A stretch of DNA of 64,000 nt from Candidatus Tepidiaquacellales bacterium OLB4/UTCHB1 (lineage in GTDB: Bacteria > Bacteroidota > Ignavibacteria > Tepidaquicellales > Tepidaquicellaceae). The notes beneath the pieces were generated by a model. The model was given only the letters and a program-made list of their open reading frames with translations. It was not told where the DNA came from and ran no database searches. Location: positions 62,001 through 126,000 of the forward strand of contig MWSW01000011.1 of NCBI GenBank assembly GCA_002050165.1, in the 5' to 3' direction. Below are positions 18,323 through 25,189 of the stretch, piece after piece. How positions within the stretch are numbered: position 1 is the stretch's first letter; each line of letters opens with the position of its first letter. The translations under genes were made by a program, and so were the position numbers.

Positions 18323-21300
18323 TTAATCAGGTAAATTCACAAGTTCGTTTTCTGCAAACTCAATATCTACCTCTTCCTGTCTGACGGTGCGGGAGAAGTA
18401 GGAATACACTGCCGGTACGACGTAAAGGGAAAGGAAAGTAGAAAAAATTAATCCGCCCACCACTGCAATACCCAACGAAGTACGACTTTCAGCTCCGATA
18501 CCTATAGCTATTGGAAGTATGCCTAAAACCGTTGAAAGCGTTGTCATCAGTATAGGTCTGAATCTTGCAACTGCACCTTCCTGTACCGCTTCAATAACTG
18601 ATAAACCTGTTAACTTCTTCTGATTTGAAAATTCGACAATCAGTATCGCGTTTTTTGTTACCAATCCGATGAGCATAATAATACCTATCTGTGAAAAAAC
18701 GTTCATAGTTTGACCAAAAAGCCAAAGTGAAAGAATTGCTCCGGTAAGGGCTAATGGCACGGTAAACATTATTATGAACGGATCAACAAAACTTTCAAAT
18801 TGTGCAGACAGAACAAGAAAGACAACCACCAATGCAAAAATAAATATGAAGACCAGGCTCGATGAACTTTCTTTATAATCTTTTGATTCGCCGGCGAGAG
18901 ATGTACTGAAATTTGGTCCAAGTATGAGACTTGCAATTCGATCCATTTCGGTTATTCCGTCACCGATTGTGTATCCCGGTTCAAGCCCAGATGTTACAGT
19001 TGCAGAGATGAATCGGTTGTATCGGTTTCGCGTCGTAGCTGTAACGGTTTCCTCTATACTTATGAGGTTGTCGAGTTGAATTAATTTCCCCTCTTTATTT
19101 TTCACGAAAAGATATTGTAAGTCGTAGGGATCGTTTCGGTTTTCGCGTTTTACCTGACCTATAACCTGATATTGTTTTCCGTCCTGAATGTAGTTACCGT
19201 ACCGGTAACCGCTCAGTGCCGCTTGAAGTGTCCGGGCTATATCAATTGTACTTACACCGAGAAGATTTGCTTTCTGGCGGTTTACTGAAATTGATACTTC
19301 GGGTTTATTAACTTTCAGGTCTGCATCAGCAAATTGGAGTATATCACTTTTATTAGCTTCTTCAAGAAACTTTGGTAAAACTTCAATGAGGCTCTCATAG
19401 TTCGGCGCTTGAATAACGTATTGTACCGGTTGTCTTGCAAATCTGGATCCTATTGTTGGTGGTTGTATCGGAAAAGCTCTTATACCGGTAATCCCGCCAA
19501 TCATTTTTGATAATTGCCCGAACACTTGTTGTTGAGTCCTGTCCCGTTCAGCAGGTCTTACGAGGTACAAACTAATAATCCCTATATTCGTAGCTCCAGG
19601 TCTGCCCCAACTTGGCGCTATAATCTCTGTAGGATTCGGTGCCTCGGGAATTGAATCAATGATCATGTCGGTGAGATCTGCCATATATCTTTGGGTATAG
19701 TCAAAGGTAGCACCTTCCGGTGCAGTGACAGAAAGCCTTATATTTGACCTGTCTTCCAATGGCGCCAGCTCCGATGGCAAGCCACTACCAATTATATAAA
19801 TCAACACTCCGCAAATGAAAATTATAATAAATGCTGTCCAACGGTATTTCATGAAAAATGATAACTGAGACCGATAAACGGAAATTAGTTTTACAAAAAA
19901 CGGTTCGGTGAGGTTGTAAAATTTATTTGTTTTATCGTGCTTCTTAAGTAAACGTGAACTTAGCATTGGTGTAAGTGACAGAGCGACAAAGGATGAGATG
20001 AGAACAGCTGCGGAAATTGTAACTCCGAATTCACGGAATAAACGCCCTACTAAACCTTCCAGAAATAAAATTGGCAAAAATACTACAACCAATGATAGTG
20101 TGGTAGAAATCACTGCAAAATATATTTCTCTTGCACCGAGGAATGCGGCTTTGCGAGGTGGAATACCCTGTTCAATTTTAGTGTAAATATTTTCAAGTAC
20201 AACGATAGCATCATCTACTACCAGTCCGATTGCCAGAATAATACCAACCAGCGTAAGAACGTTAATGGAAAAATCCACAAGGAATAAAACGAAAAAAGCT
20301 GCGATTATTGAGACCGGAATTGAAATGACCGGAATGAAAGTAGATCGCCAATCGCGCAGAAATAAAAATATTATCATTATCACCAACACGAAAGCTATGA
20401 ATATCGTACTTTCAACTTCATCAATTGTTGTCCTTACGTATTCGGAAAAATCAAATCCAACTTCGAGGCTAATATCTTCCGGTACCTCTTTTTCCAGCTG
20501 AGCAAACCTTTCCCAAAAGTCATCGGATATTTGTATTAGATTTGAACCTGGAATAGCTTGAATGGATACTCCAATCCCAGGTACACCACGCTGTCTGAAA
20601 CCTGTTCTGTCATTTTCGGGATAAATTTCTGCATTTCCGACGTCACTGAATTTAACCGTATTAATTCCGTCATCTTTTATAATAAGGTTGTTGAATTCGT
20701 CAACTGTGTTCAACCTTCCAAGTGTTCTGATAGTAAGCTCCACATCGTCCCCTTCTATCCTGCCTGACGGTAGTTCGATATTTTCACGGTTAATTGCGTT
20801 TTGAATATCAATCGCAGTAATTCCATGAGCAGTAAGTTTCACCGGATCTAACCAAAGTCGCATAGAGTACTTCTTTTCCCCGAAAACGTTAACTGAGGCT
20901 ACTCCGTTAATCGTTTGCAATCGCTCTTTGATAATGTTGGTAGCGAAGTTACTTACCTCCATCAGGTTTCGTTTATCGCTTTTTACGTAGAGGAAAATTA
21001 TCGGCATTGCGTCGGCATCAGCTTTTCTGACAACGGGGTTATCTATATCAGGTGGGAGATTACGTTGCGCTGATGACACGCGGTCACGAACATCATTTGC
21101 AGCATCTTCAAGGCTACGCTCAAGTTCAAATTCTATTGTTATTACGCTAGATTCGTCCCTGCTGGTTGACGTTAAAGTTTTAATTCCTTCTATTCCATTT
21201 AAAGATTGTTCAAGTGGTTCGGTTATCTGAGTTTCGATTACATCTGCATTTGCACCGGGATAAACTGTAGTAACCGTTACAATCGGTGGGTCAACATTTG

Positions 21301-21412
21301 GATACTCCCTTACTTCGAGATTTGTAAATGCAACGATACCAAAGATGATCAGGATTAAGTTCATCACTATTGTCAGTACCGGACGTTTTATGGAAACACT
21401 TGAGAGGCTCAT
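18323..21412 (-). CDS. RND efflux transporter, HAE1/AcrB-like
   Basis: Inner-membrane RND pump of 1029 residues. The N-terminus is family-typical (SVSIKRPVLTIVMNLILIIFG), with two large periplasmic loops and twelve membrane segments in the usual 1+5+1+5 pattern. The proton-relay aspartate pair is present in GLVVDDAIVVLENIYT. The second half has GLVTKNAILIVEF and GAVARFRPILMTT as in AcrB/MexB relatives. It follows its adaptor gene after five bases. No TolC-like outer-membrane channel is in the window, so the pump must recruit one from elsewhere. The sequence type fits multidrug or lipophilic compound export rather than heavy-metal RND. The substrate is not predictable. Confidence 0.95.
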   Translation of the reverse strand: MSLSSVSIKRPVLTIVMNLILIIFGIVAFTNLEVREYPNVDPPIVTVTTVYPGANADVIETQITEPLEQSLNGIEGIKTLTSTSRDESSVITIEFELERSLEDAANDVRDRVSSAQRNLPPDIDNPVVRKADADAMPIIFLYVKSDKRNLMEVSNFATNIIKERLQTINGVASVNVFGEKKYSMRLWLDPVKLTAHGITAIDIQNAINRENIELPSGRIEGDDVELTIRTLGRLNTVDEFNNLIIKDDGINTVKFSDVGNAEIYPENDRTGFRQRGVPGIGVSIQAIPGSNLIQISDDFWERFAQLEKEVPEDISLEVGFDFSEYVRTTIDEVESTIFIAFVLVIMIIFLFLRDWRSTFIPVISIPVSIIAAFFVLFLVDFSINVLTLVGIILAIGLVVDDAIVVLENIYTKIEQGIPPRKAAFLGAREIYFAVISTTLSLVVVFLPILFLEGLVGRLFREFGVTISAAVLISSFVALSLTPMLSSRLLKKHDKTNKFYNLTEPFFVKLISVYRSQLSFFMKYRWTAFIIIFICGVLIYIIGSGLPSELAPLEDRSNIRLSVTAPEGATFDYTQRYMADLTDMIIDSIPEAPNPTEIIAPSWGRPGATNIGIISLYLVRPAERDRTQQQVFGQLSKMIGGITGIRAFPIQPPTIGSRFARQPVQYVIQAPNYESLIEVLPKFLEEANKSDILQFADADLKVNKPEVSISVNRQKANLLGVSTIDIARTLQAALSGYRYGNYIQDGKQYQVIGQVKRENRNDPYDLQYLFVKNKEGKLIQLDNLISIEETVTATTRNRYNRFISATVTSGLEPGYTIGDGITEMDRIASLILGPNFSTSLAGESKDYKESSSSLVFIFIFALVVVFLVLSAQFESFVDPFIIMFTVPLALTGAILSLWLFGQTMNVFSQIGIIMLIGLVTKNAILIVEFSNQKKLTGLSVIEAVQEGAVARFRPILMTTLSTVLGILPIAIGIGAESRTSLGIAVVGGLIFSTFLSLYVVPAVYSYFSRTVRQEEVDIEFAENELVNLPD

Positions 21413-21417
21413 AAAAG

Positions 21418-22491
21418 CTAATTAACATTTACGATTTTTACCTCAGCGCCGGGTCGTAAACGGAGGATGTTTGTTATCAGTAGGGTATCACCGGGGTTAA
21501 TTTCAGGTGAAATAATCTGTACTTCTTCATCCGTCCTCGTTCCTATTTCAACTTCAAATGGTTTTGCTTTACCATCCTTCAAGATATAAACTTCGTGACC
21601 TTGCAACTTTGGTATTAACGCCTGAGATGGTATTAACATTGCATCTTTTACCGGATTAAGCTCAAATGTAACATTTGCAAAGGTTCCCGGTTTAAGCTCA
21701 CCGGAAGTATTTCGAGTGATAGCCCTGATTATGACTGATCTTGTATTGAGGTCAATTGATGGTTCAGATGCATAAATCTCTGCAATGAATTTATTTTCTG
21801 ATGATTCAATTGTGAATTTAATATTTTGCCCCTTCTTCAGTTGCGATGAATATCGTTCAGGGATGGAAAAGTCAATTTTAACTTGTGATAAATCCTGTAT
21901 GGTTGTGAGAATATCGTTTGGAGTTACAAAGCTACCACGACTGACATTCCTCAAGCCGATTATACCTGAGAACGGCGCACGGATAAAAGTCTTTGAAATT
22001 TGAACTGATAAAAGTTCAATATCAGCCCTGATATGCTCAAGTTCATTTAGAGAAATCTCGTATTCCTCTTCGGGAATTAACCCACGTTCGCGAAGTTTTT
22101 CATCACGTTCAATTTTTTTAACGGAAAGGTCTTCCTGTATTTTTAGTTTCTTTAGTTGCGCATATAGTTCAGAGTTATCTAGCGTGAAAAGTAGTTTTCC
22201 CCTCGACACAAATGTTCCTTCACGAAAATGAATGCCCGTTAGCCTTCTGGAAACTTCAGACCTGACCTCAACTTCCTCATTGGGAATGATGTTTCCAGTT
22301 GTCTTAATTTTATTTTCCAATACGTGTTCTCTTATTATATAACCGTCTGCTAACACCGGACCTTGTTGTCTGTTGCCTCCGGGTGAATTAGTCTTATCCC
22401 TGGATAGTTTAGGTATTAAAATTACTGAAGCGATTATTACCAGTATTATGACAACGGGAATTACTACAAATTTTTTAAGTTTTTTATTCAA
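21418..22491 (-). CDS. RND efflux periplasmic adaptor subunit (membrane fusion protein)
   Basis: Periplasmic adaptor of 357 residues that links the RND pump to an outer-membrane channel. An N-terminal membrane anchor (about residues 8-28) is followed by a lipoyl/barrel-sandwich half (VEVRSEVSRRLTGIHFREGTFVSRG), an alpha-helical hairpin (about residues 113-165), the second lipoyl half (IRAPFSGIIGLRNVSRGSFV) and a beta-barrel domain with LKPGTFANVTFEL. The start is TTG at 22491. It is the first gene of the two-gene pump operon. No regulator lies next to it; the neighbour across the 88-base divergent gap is an exported hydrolase. Confidence 0.93.
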   Translation of the reverse strand: MNKKLKKFVVIPVVIILVIIASVILIPKLSRDKTNSPGGNRQQGPVLADGYIIREHVLENKIKTTGNIIPNEEVEVRSEVSRRLTGIHFREGTFVSRGKLLFTLDNSELYAQLKKLKIQEDLSVKKIERDEKLRERGLIPEEEYEISLNELEHIRADIELLSVQISKTFIRAPFSGIIGLRNVSRGSFVTPNDILTTIQDLSQVKIDFSIPERYSSQLKKGQNIKFTIESSENKFIAEIYASEPSIDLNTRSVIIRAITRNTSGELKPGTFANVTFELNPVKDAMLIPSQALIPKLQGHEVYILKDGKAKPFEVEIGTRTDEEVQIISPEINPGDTLLITNILRLRPGAEVKIVNVN

Positions 22492-22579: not shown

Positions 22580-23716
22580 ATGAAGATTAAGAAATTTATA
22601 GTGCTATTAATATATTTTGCCATCAACGGGGTTTCTTACGGGCAGATTGAAAATGCGTTAGGAGTTATTACTGAACCAGTCAGAAAGGTTGGATTTGAAA
22701 AATATGACTTGTTCGATTCAACGAGAATGTACGACGAAAAGCCGAGACATTTGCAGTTACTCATGTGGTATCCCGCAGATATTGATACAAGCAGTCAGTC
22801 TATTACATTGAAATATTACGCTGAACTTAAAGCAAGTGAGATTAATGTTTCCGATACATTGAAAAATGCAAAAGAAAAAGCTGTGAATGAATATGTATCA
22901 TACAATTCAAAATTAGGGGTTGTAAGTTTTAAATTCAAAAAAGGGTTGGCGGATAATACTTTGTCGCGAAGAAATGCAAGAATAAAAAAACATAAACACC
23001 CGGTAATTTATTTTGTTCAGGGTAGGTCAGGTTCGCCAGTAGATAATTTTGCAATGTATGAATTTCTCGCATCGAACGGATATATTGTGCTGACCACTCC
23101 CGCATATGGCAACACAACACGTTACATGACATTTGACAGTACCGAGTTTGAAACCCAATTACTTGATCAGGAAATGGTTTACGATTTTGCCAACGATAAT
23201 CTGAATATTGACGCTAAAAGACAAGCTTATATCGGATATAGTTACGGTAGCATTACATCTGTTTTTTCTGCAATGAAAAATCCGAATATAAAGGCAGTTG
23301 TTAGTTTAGATGGCTCTATTGGATATAAAGACAGGATTCCGGAAGTCAAAAAGTTCCACTTGTATGATTCAACTTCATTCAAAATACCTTTGCTTCATTT
23401 AAATACACCGAAGAACTCAAAGCGTAATGATCTCTCTTTGATTAGTGAACTTAACGCACCTGTGAAAATTGTAATTTCGTTCCCAACTTTTTCACACGTT
23501 GATTTCACTTCAATCGGGCTTTTAAGGGCATTTGCAGGAGTTGCGCGATCCGAGCCCGATGATGATTTTAAAAGCGAGCAAATTTATTTTTATAAGTGTG
23601 TATTGAATTTCATTAATACAGTTTTTTCGGGAGACAATATTCCTGCGACGAAATATCGGCGAAAGTTAATGGCAAAGGATTTTCCAGAAAGTATAATCTA
23701 TCGTGAGATCAAATAA
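22580..23716 (+). CDS. Exported alpha/beta hydrolase
   Basis: Secreted alpha/beta-hydrolase of 378 residues with a signal peptide ending near VSYGQ (about residue 22). The nucleophile elbow is GYSYGS, following a strand with RQAYIGYS, so the serine is the likely nucleophile. An upstream HPVIYFVQGRSGSP segment forms the oxyanion region, and a late FSHVDFTS segment could give the catalytic His. It resembles the dienelactone-hydrolase and platelet-activating-factor-acetylhydrolase-like group of secreted esterases. The substrate is unknown. It leads a run of three exported proteins on the plus strand, with 47 bases to the next gene. Confidence 0.8.
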   Translation: MKIKKFIVLLIYFAINGVSYGQIENALGVITEPVRKVGFEKYDLFDSTRMYDEKPRHLQLLMWYPADIDTSSQSITLKYYAELKASEINVSDTLKNAKEKAVNEYVSYNSKLGVVSFKFKKGLADNTLSRRNARIKKHKHPVIYFVQGRSGSPVDNFAMYEFLASNGYIVLTTPAYGNTTRYMTFDSTEFETQLLDQEMVYDFANDNLNIDAKRQAYIGYSYGSITSVFSAMKNPNIKAVVSLDGSIGYKDRIPEVKKFHLYDSTSFKIPLLHLNTPKNSKRNDLSLISELNAPVKIVISFPTFSHVDFTSIGLLRAFAGVARSEPDDDFKSEQIYFYKCVLNFINTVFSGDNIPATKYRRKLMAKDFPESIIYREIK

Positions 23717-23763: not shown

Positions 23764-24192
23764 ATGAAACTAATCCTGCTATTCATTATTGTAATTGTTT
23801 TAAACTCTTGCAGTGAAAATAAAATCAGTCAGGTGCGGCAGTCTAACCCGGAAGATCTCAAAGGCAGCTGGATACTCGTTTCCATAGATAATGACAGTGT
23901 CCCTCCGGCGGAAGTATATCCAAACAATGTAACTCTGACATTCGAGGCTGATAAAGATAAGGTTCACGGGCAGGCGTGGTGTAATACATATTTCGGGAGT
24001 TACAGTGCAAGTACTGAGGGAATAATTTTTTCCGCAATTGGATCTACTAGGCGTTCGTGCGAGAGATTGCAGGAAGAGCATTATTATTTCCAGTTGCTTG
24101 ATAAAATCGAAATGTACTCAGTCGAGGAAAATAAACTGACACTTACAGGTAACAGCCATATCTTAGTTTTTTCCAGAGCATTTACGAAGTGA
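23764..24192 (+). CDS. META-domain lipoprotein
   Basis: Small exported lipoprotein of 142 residues. A hydrophobic signal ends at a lipobox LNSC, with the acylated cysteine at residue 16. The rest is one META-type domain, recognisable from LKGSWILVSIDND near residue 33, VTLTFEADKDKVHGQAWCNTYFGSY in the middle and a C-terminal LTLTGNSHILVFSR. META/HslJ proteins are envelope proteins linked to stress or antibiotic tolerance in other bacteria, but their activity is not known. The TRRSCE segment replaces the usual Met-Thr-x-x-Ala-Cys motif while keeping a Cys. It lies 10 bases before the PNGase F-like gene, so the two are probably co-transcribed. Confidence 0.8.
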   Translation: MKLILLFIIVIVLNSCSENKISQVRQSNPEDLKGSWILVSIDNDSVPPAEVYPNNVTLTFEADKDKVHGQAWCNTYFGSYSASTEGIIFSAIGSTRRSCERLQEEHYYFQLLDKIEMYSVEENKLTLTGNSHILVFSRAFTK

Positions 24193-24202
24193 AGTTTGCA
24201 TT

Positions 24203-25189
24203 ATGAAAGCGGTTTTAATCGGAATATTTATTTTGTTTCCGTTGCCAGGGATTTCAAAAATTTGTGATATTCCCGTTACGGTCTTTAATTCAAATCATAT
24301 CAGTTTCGGCGATTCCCTCGATCAAGGTGAAGTAAAAGTTCTTGACAAGGGGAGAATTATACACAGGAAAATTACTTTACCTGAAAAGAATAGCAACAGA
24401 AAGATAACAGCAATTCTTCGCATAGCATCTGCCGGCGATCCATGGGACAGGTTCGGGAGCATATTTATTGCGGGTGATAATGCCCCTGATGTTGAGTTGA
24501 CAAGATTTATGACAGGTTTCGGAACAGGTAGAAAAGACGTTGAAGTTCATCCGACAGTAAAGAACTGGGCGGATTATTCCGAATGGGAAATTGATGTCAG
24601 TATGCTTGATGTTTTGCTTCAGGGCGAAGTAATCATAGGCGCAATGATTGATACGTGGGTAAATCCCGGCTGGACAATTTCCTTCTCATTAATTTTTTCA
24701 GAAGATGAAACGGCAATAAATCCGTTTGCAATCATTCCACTGATAAACACAATAGGTGAATATAAAGGTATTAAGTTTTTCAACGAACAGATGCTTGAAT
24801 CAGAATTCAACCTGGAGGAGAAGTTTACTGAAGCCAGATTGATAATTTATACTTCAGGACATGGCGGTACATCCCTCGGTGATGAGTTTCATCCGAAGCA
24901 TAATGTGGTTTATCTCGATGGGAAGGAAATTTTCAGATTCATTCCATGGAGGTCAGATTGTACACAGTTCAGACCATTTAATCCCACTTCAGCAAAGTGG
25001 GAGGGTGATGTTTGGTCATCGGATTTAGACAGGTCGGGTTGGTGTCCGGGTGATATTGTTGATTCGTATCAGATCAATTTAACCGGTCTTAATTCCGGTA
25101 ATCACAAACTCGCTTACAATGTTGAAAACCAGTCTTCGCTTGATATGAACTTTTGGAATATAGATTGTTATCTCGCAGTGTGGAGATAA
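24203..25189 (+). CDS. PNGase F-like exported protein (peptide-N-glycosidase family)
   Basis: Exported protein of 328 residues similar to peptide-N(4)-(N-acetyl-beta-glucosaminyl)asparagine amidase F, which removes N-glycans from glycoproteins. Both halves are recognisable. The N-terminal half has DPWDRFGSIFIA (D82, matching the main catalytic Asp) and AMIDTWVNPGW, where D150 sits at a position that is Glu in the Flavobacterium-type enzyme as I recall it. The C-terminal half has SGHGGTSLGDEFHPKHN (E228 matching the second acidic residue), FIPWRSDC and SDLDRSGWCPG. A signal peptide ends near residue 18-20. It would act outside the cytoplasm. Alignment to the reference enzyme is from memory, so the residue matches need checking. 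It follows the META lipoprotein by 10 bases. Confidence 0.82.
   Translation: MKAVLIGIFILFPLPGISKICDIPVTVFNSNHISFGDSLDQGEVKVLDKGRIIHRKITLPEKNSNRKITAILRIASAGDPWDRFGSIFIAGDNAPDVELTRFMTGFGTGRKDVEVHPTVKNWADYSEWEIDVSMLDVLLQGEVIIGAMIDTWVNPGWTISFSLIFSEDETAINPFAIIPLINTIGEYKGIKFFNEQMLESEFNLEEKFTEARLIIYTSGHGGTSLGDEFHPKHNVVYLDGKEIFRFIPWRSDCTQFRPFNPTSAKWEGDVWSSDLDRSGWCPGDIVDSYQINLTGLNSGNHKLAYNVENQSSLDMNFWNIDCYLAVWR

Follow-up and report, generated by a model that had tools for sequence, protein, structure and literature searches.

The PNGase gene and its surroundings

The window, by which we mean the whole 64,000-nucleotide stretch of DNA that was analysed, carries an open reading frame that runs exactly from 24203 to 25189 on the forward strand, opens with ATG and encodes 328 amino acids. 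The features relevant to this gene are as follows.

18323-22491, RND-type efflux pump pair, named from its translation
22580..23716, + strand, alpha/beta hydrolase, weakly matched by PAF-AH_p_II, with a probable signal peptide judged by eye, upstream of the PNGase gene
23764..24192, + strand, probable lipoprotein, META/HslJ-like, upstream of the PNGase gene and 10 bases before its start
24203..25189, + strand, PNGase F family protein of 328 amino acids with an ATG start, identified by Pfam, PDB sequence matches and fold
24446..24448, + strand, codon of D82 (in GDPWDRFG), equivalent to PNGase F Asp60 by alignment and kept in all five compact-clade members
24650..24652, + strand, codon of D150 (in MIDTWV), equivalent to PNGase F Glu118 and to the group 1 Asp (alignment; PMC9522356)
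24884..24886, + strand, codon of E228 (in GDEF), equivalent to PNGase F Glu206 by alignment

The genes for the alpha/beta hydrolase, the META lipoprotein and the PNGase are close-set on the forward strand, 47 and 10 bases apart, and they may possibly share one transcript. Promoter-like matches (17, against 11.4 +/- 3.5 in shuffled sequences) and terminator-like matches (3, against 2.0 +/- 1.5) were not clearly above the shuffled background. The scan added a leucyl aminopeptidase as another neighbour. A placement of the PNGase within a sugar-utilisation locus was considered and rejected, as none of the neighbours (the efflux pump pair, the hydrolase, the META lipoprotein and the leucyl aminopeptidase) was glycoside-hydrolase-like among the five genes scanned, the PNGase included.

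A different arrangement was observed in three other loci (L047:5755-7949, L048:6563-8711 and L049:743-2885), in which a compact PNGase gene directly follows truB, overlapping its end, and is itself followed by a GNAT acetyltransferase gene, the whole arrangement lying downstream of rimP-nusA-infB. The GNAT assignment comes from the scan, and the names truB, rimP, nusA and infB were given to these genes from their sequences. The truB locus of the window's own genome (L089) holds neither a PNGase nor a GNAT gene, and thus a conserved linkage to truB, present in L047, L048 and L049 and absent at the own truB and in L046, was not upheld.

Family assignment and predicted fold

The preliminary description of this DNA had proposed a PNGase F-like protein with both halves of the enzyme recognisable, and Pfam matched both: N-glycanase_N at 1.5e-25 (90.4 bits against a cut-off of 22.4) and N-glycanase_C at 2.1e-35 (122 bits against a cut-off of 25), scores so far above the cut-offs that the family match is not due to chance. 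The NCBIfam scan returned no match for this protein. Among proteins of known structure, the sequence matched 4r4z at 4.6e-51, 3ks7 at 1.6e-44 and 4qhb at 7.8e-42; its nearest solved relatives are PNGF-II (4r4z, 4r4x), a group 2 enzyme of B. massiliensis (7zgn), B. fragilis 3ks7 and B. vulgatus 4qhb, and the classic PNGase F (1pnf, 1pgs, 3pms) was matched only by profile, with an E-value of about 2e-8. The protein is a single module. Its N-terminus, judged by eye, is probably a Sec-type signal peptide of about residues 1-20 that lacks a lipobox, and the catalytic module begins directly after it; Pfam found no PNGase_F-II_N (NBL) domain in it, in contrast to the homologue at locus L025, which has one.

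A ColabFold model built from two sequences reached a mean pLDDT of 58.1 and a pTM of 0.63, with residues 219-230 and 250-284 below a pLDDT of 50, so that E228 falls in a low-confidence stretch. The top 18 structural matches of the model were nevertheless all PNGases. In VIA-align superpositions the model gave Z scores of 22.8 with 4r4z, 22.4 with 3ks7 and 21.4 with 1pnf; 10 of the 11 PNGase entries lay at Z 20-23, the eleventh (9vla) at 14.1, and the first unrelated row at 8.5. The two side-by-side eight-stranded sheets of 1pnf were recovered over 269 aligned residues (rmsd 3.2, for a model whose mean pLDDT is only 58), and the structural comparison with PNGase F that the preliminary description had called for returned the PNGase fold.

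Active-site residues

Alignment with 1pnf placed D82 and E228 opposite Asp60 and Glu206, and D150 opposite Glu118, as the preliminary description had supposed; the TETW motif that it had given for PNGase F also appears in the printed alignment, which reads y-t-e-t-w with the E as residue 118. Identical between 1pnf and the window protein are D57/D79, W59/W81, D60/D82, R61/R83, W120/W152, E206/E228, R248/R277 and W251/W280. Four positions are replaced, namely E118 by D150, W191 by H220, H193 by G222 and W207 by F229. The last three replacements are common to 3ks7, 4r4z and 7zgn, and the Asp replacement of E118 is present also in 3ks7. PMC12381499 describes His at the W191 position as the rule in that loop and the Trp of PNGase F as the exception. 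We also considered whether E186 could correspond to the glutamate that compensates in PNGase F-II (E419 in a legend of PMC9522356), with which HMMER aligned it; this candidate was rejected, and we make no claim on E186, because the position varies among the five compact members (E, Q, D, D and E) and the multiple alignment places the residues differently.

The IDTW motif around D150 is the same in 3ks7 (B. fragilis), 4qhb (B. vulgatus) and the window protein. It also occurs in all four of the closest homologues found (L003, L004, L005 and L046), which makes the Asp a feature of the clade rather than a change in this gene alone. WDR, IDTW and GDEF are kept in all five compact-clade members, and in the tree no row of either Asp clade departs from Asp (five compact and five group 1 rows). 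A census of the column holding D150 in the 67 non-PDB rows gave G 26, D 17, E 8, S 7, T 4, N 3 and gap 2; divergent long proteins are poorly aligned at this column, and our argument therefore uses the clear clades only.

A compact clade among known PNGases

A tree was built from 35 chosen rows out of 72; from the alignment underlying the tree and the census, L062, L066, L070, L076 and L079 had been omitted as repeats, and L077, L078 and L080 although they are not repeats. The tree separated four labelled groups without mixing: an E type (T9SS-tailed relatives and 1pnf), a G type (PNGF-II-like, NBL), Bacteroides group 1 (Asp) and a compact group (Asp) that contains the window protein. Together with the distant row L033, the compact clade has support of 88/81 and was intact in 95% of 200 bootstrap trees; group 1 forms its own clade (98/98), outside which the window clade falls. 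The order among the G type, group 1 and compact clades is not settled by the tree, and the position of 1pnf is unsure because of its very long branch.

With group 1 (BF0811; 4qhb of B. vulgatus) the window protein shares 37-38% identity over about 280 aligned residues, Asp in IDTW, His in place of W191, GDEF, SSDL.RS.WCPG and the lack of an NBL domain. It differs from group 1 in reading WDR rather than WDK, in standing on a separate branch that is not nested in group 1, and in lacking both a loop of about 35 residues in the N-half and an insert of about 20 residues in the C-half; the insert lengths are 27 residues against 46-48 in group 1, and 14 against 48-49 in complete group 1 rows. Group 1 is also described by a small insert, a beta-sheet twist beside the active site; either of the two inserts could be this twist, and both are missing from the window protein, which thus shares the key residue of group 1 and fails two of its other features. 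With PNGase F-II and group 2 (4r4z, 7zgn) it has in common the fold, 37-39% identity and the absence of the C-half insert, but it has none of the Gly at the Glu118 position, the Tyr at W59 and, found in most of that group, the N-terminal NBL domain. PNGase F itself (1pnf, Elizabethkingia) resembles it in the two-sheet fold, the compact N-half and the residues D60, E206, R61, W59, W120, R248 and W251, and differs in overall sequence (16-22% identity), in Glu118 (here Asp) and in Trp191 (here His). The zebrafish acid PNGase Ngly2 (9lwg), an animal lysosomal enzyme with extra domains, has the PNGase F-type fold and the Asp/Glu pair at 19% identity. The gene thus belongs to the PNGase F family and to a compact sub-branch that has neither the NBL domain nor the N-half loop common to both groups nor the C-half insert of group 1, which is mildly new within a largely ordinary explanation.

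Relatives of other architectures were also observed. In L046:4955-6964, from a MAG labelled Bacillota, a compact Asp-type PNGase is fused to a Pur_ac_phosph_N (purple-acid-phosphatase-type N-terminal) domain and to a further stretch of about 240 residues to which the scan assigned no Pfam family. Genomes of the same family or order (L007, L009, L010, L011, L013, L020 and L044) encode Glu-type (IE[ST]W) PNGase F homologues of about 450-500 amino acids; the three inspected, L010 with Pfam and L007 and L013 by eye, end in a type IX secretion tail, which the compact Asp type does not have, and the tails in relatives read NYPNPFNP.

Distribution and genomic context of the family

PF09113 was matched in 19 of 29 genomes of the same family and in 113 of 294 of the same class, and a protein search of 395 genomes of the same phylum found a match in 54. 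In genomes of the same phylum there are sequences that reach 71% identity with the PNGF-II chain and 79% with chain 3ks7 of B. fragilis; judged by these, the window genome would sit in one phylum-level group with Bacteroides-like and Elizabethkingia-like genomes. These figures undercut the premise of the preliminary description that the gene lies outside Bacteroidota. Its companion statement, that relatives are uncommon beyond that phylum, is weakened by PMC12381499 and PMC12753239, which place the superfamily also in Deinococcota, Pseudomonadota and animals, the former with a tree of 1897 sequences and characterised members from Deinococcus, Labilithrix and oyster. A literature search combining PNGase with Ignavibacteria found no paper.

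Compact members were recognised by reading of the loci in 4 of the 29 same-family genomes, with loci for 20 of the 22 PF09113 matches. In a phylum sample of 30 loci (L051-L080) no compact member was recognised besides the window's own (L051); three of these loci (L077, L078 and L080), with open frames of 781-1256 amino acids, were unaligned.

The window's own genome has one PF09113 match. Five glycosidase families were searched in it (GH18, GH20, GH38, GH92 and GH130) without a match, and STT3 (PF02516) was found in none of the six genomes compared, the window's own among them. In the absence of these families the window enzyme looks like an orphan, and the earlier suggestion that it serves the use of bacterial N-glycoproteins is left without support by the STT3 search. 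Among the five other genomes, GH92 and GH20 occur only in G003, GH18 occurs once each in G007, G026 and G027, and GH130 is found in G007 (one match) and G043. G003 (L002, L081, L082 and L083), the only one of the six with both GH92 and GH20, carries a group 2 (Gly) PNGase of NBL length.

Discussion

The window gene quite probably encodes a compact, exported Asp-type peptide:N-glycosidase of the PNGase F family. Such an enzyme would act in the periplasm or outside the cell, where it would hydrolyse the amide between the first GlcNAc and the asparagine of N-glycopeptides and leave an aspartate. Reasoning from the homologous Asp60 and Glu206 in PNGase F, we would expect D82 to serve as the main catalytic acid, paired with E228; in the zebrafish enzyme, according to PMC12753239, the equivalent Ngly2 residues Asp421 and Glu555 are each essential. 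D150 would hold the first GlcNAc and, provided that it behaves like its group 1 counterpart, would shut out core alpha1,3-fucose; in taking over the holding and blocking job of Glu118, it would most likely give the enzyme a preference for glycans without core alpha1,3-fucose, like that of BF0811. This exclusion is the least sure step of the proposed mechanism, because PMC12381499 ties alpha1,3-fucose acceptance to open space around the chitobiose and to loops around GlcNAc C3 rather than to one residue, and the compact clade departs in loops from the solved proteins nearest to it. With the N-half loop of about 35 residues of both groups missing, the specificity of the compact clade may differ. 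Since none of the five searched N-glycan glycosidase families was found, the likeliest benefit to the cell would be access to the peptide or release of glycans for neighbours.

The preliminary description had suggested that the loss of one methylene at an active-site carboxylate could change activity or specificity. D150 does occupy the Glu118 position, and this position steers specificity, in that Glu or Asp blocks core alpha1,3-fucose and Gly admits it (PMC9522356). The same study, however, reports Asp as conserved at this position in the group 1 Bacteroides PNGases and BF0811 of B. fragilis, an Asp-type member of that group, as acting much like PNGase F; the preliminary description had itself named active Asp-bearing homologues as evidence against its proposal, and BF0811 is such a homologue. 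The Glu-to-Asp replacement alone thus predicts neither a loss nor a shift of activity, and with the Asp fixed in both Asp clades we regard a distinctive alteration of PNGase F function as very unlikely. That the protein is catalytically dead and only binds glycans is extremely improbable, given that D82, E228, W81, R83, R277 and W280 are kept in it and in four homologues.

An N-glycan feeding role might be replaced, in the compact clade, by deglycosylation or de-amidation of some other, perhaps self-made, N-linked substrate. The own genome's lack of GH92, GH20, GH18, GH38 and GH130 matches agrees with this, as does the position of the gene in three relatives, after truB in a rimP-nusA-infB cluster and before a GNAT gene rather than in a sugar-utilisation locus. 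Yet STT3 is absent from all six genomes, the truB linkage is not conserved, three of the genomes do have a GH18 match, one of them with a GH130 match besides, and orphan PNGase genes are common, accounting for most of the six characterised in PMC12381499; on balance we consider another substrate unlikely. Bolder still would be to count the compact Asp clade as a branch in its own right, the third alongside Bacteroides groups 1 and 2, retained in small genomes without the usual N-glycan glycosidases and acting on a substrate that is not dietary eukaryotic glycoprotein (for example, a self-made N-linked modification made without STT3) or purely opening glycopeptides for proteolysis, a proposal that we hold to be quite improbable.

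We therefore return to the compact Asp-type peptide:N-glycosidase as the preferred reading. Asp in place of the textbook Glu of PNGase F is what a described and active group normally carries, and it does not deserve to be marked as unusual. Lacking both loops, the compact clade represents a slim Asp-type PNGase F module, which may offer a straightforward way to ask whether alpha1,3-fucose is excluded by residue 118 on its own or by the surrounding loops.
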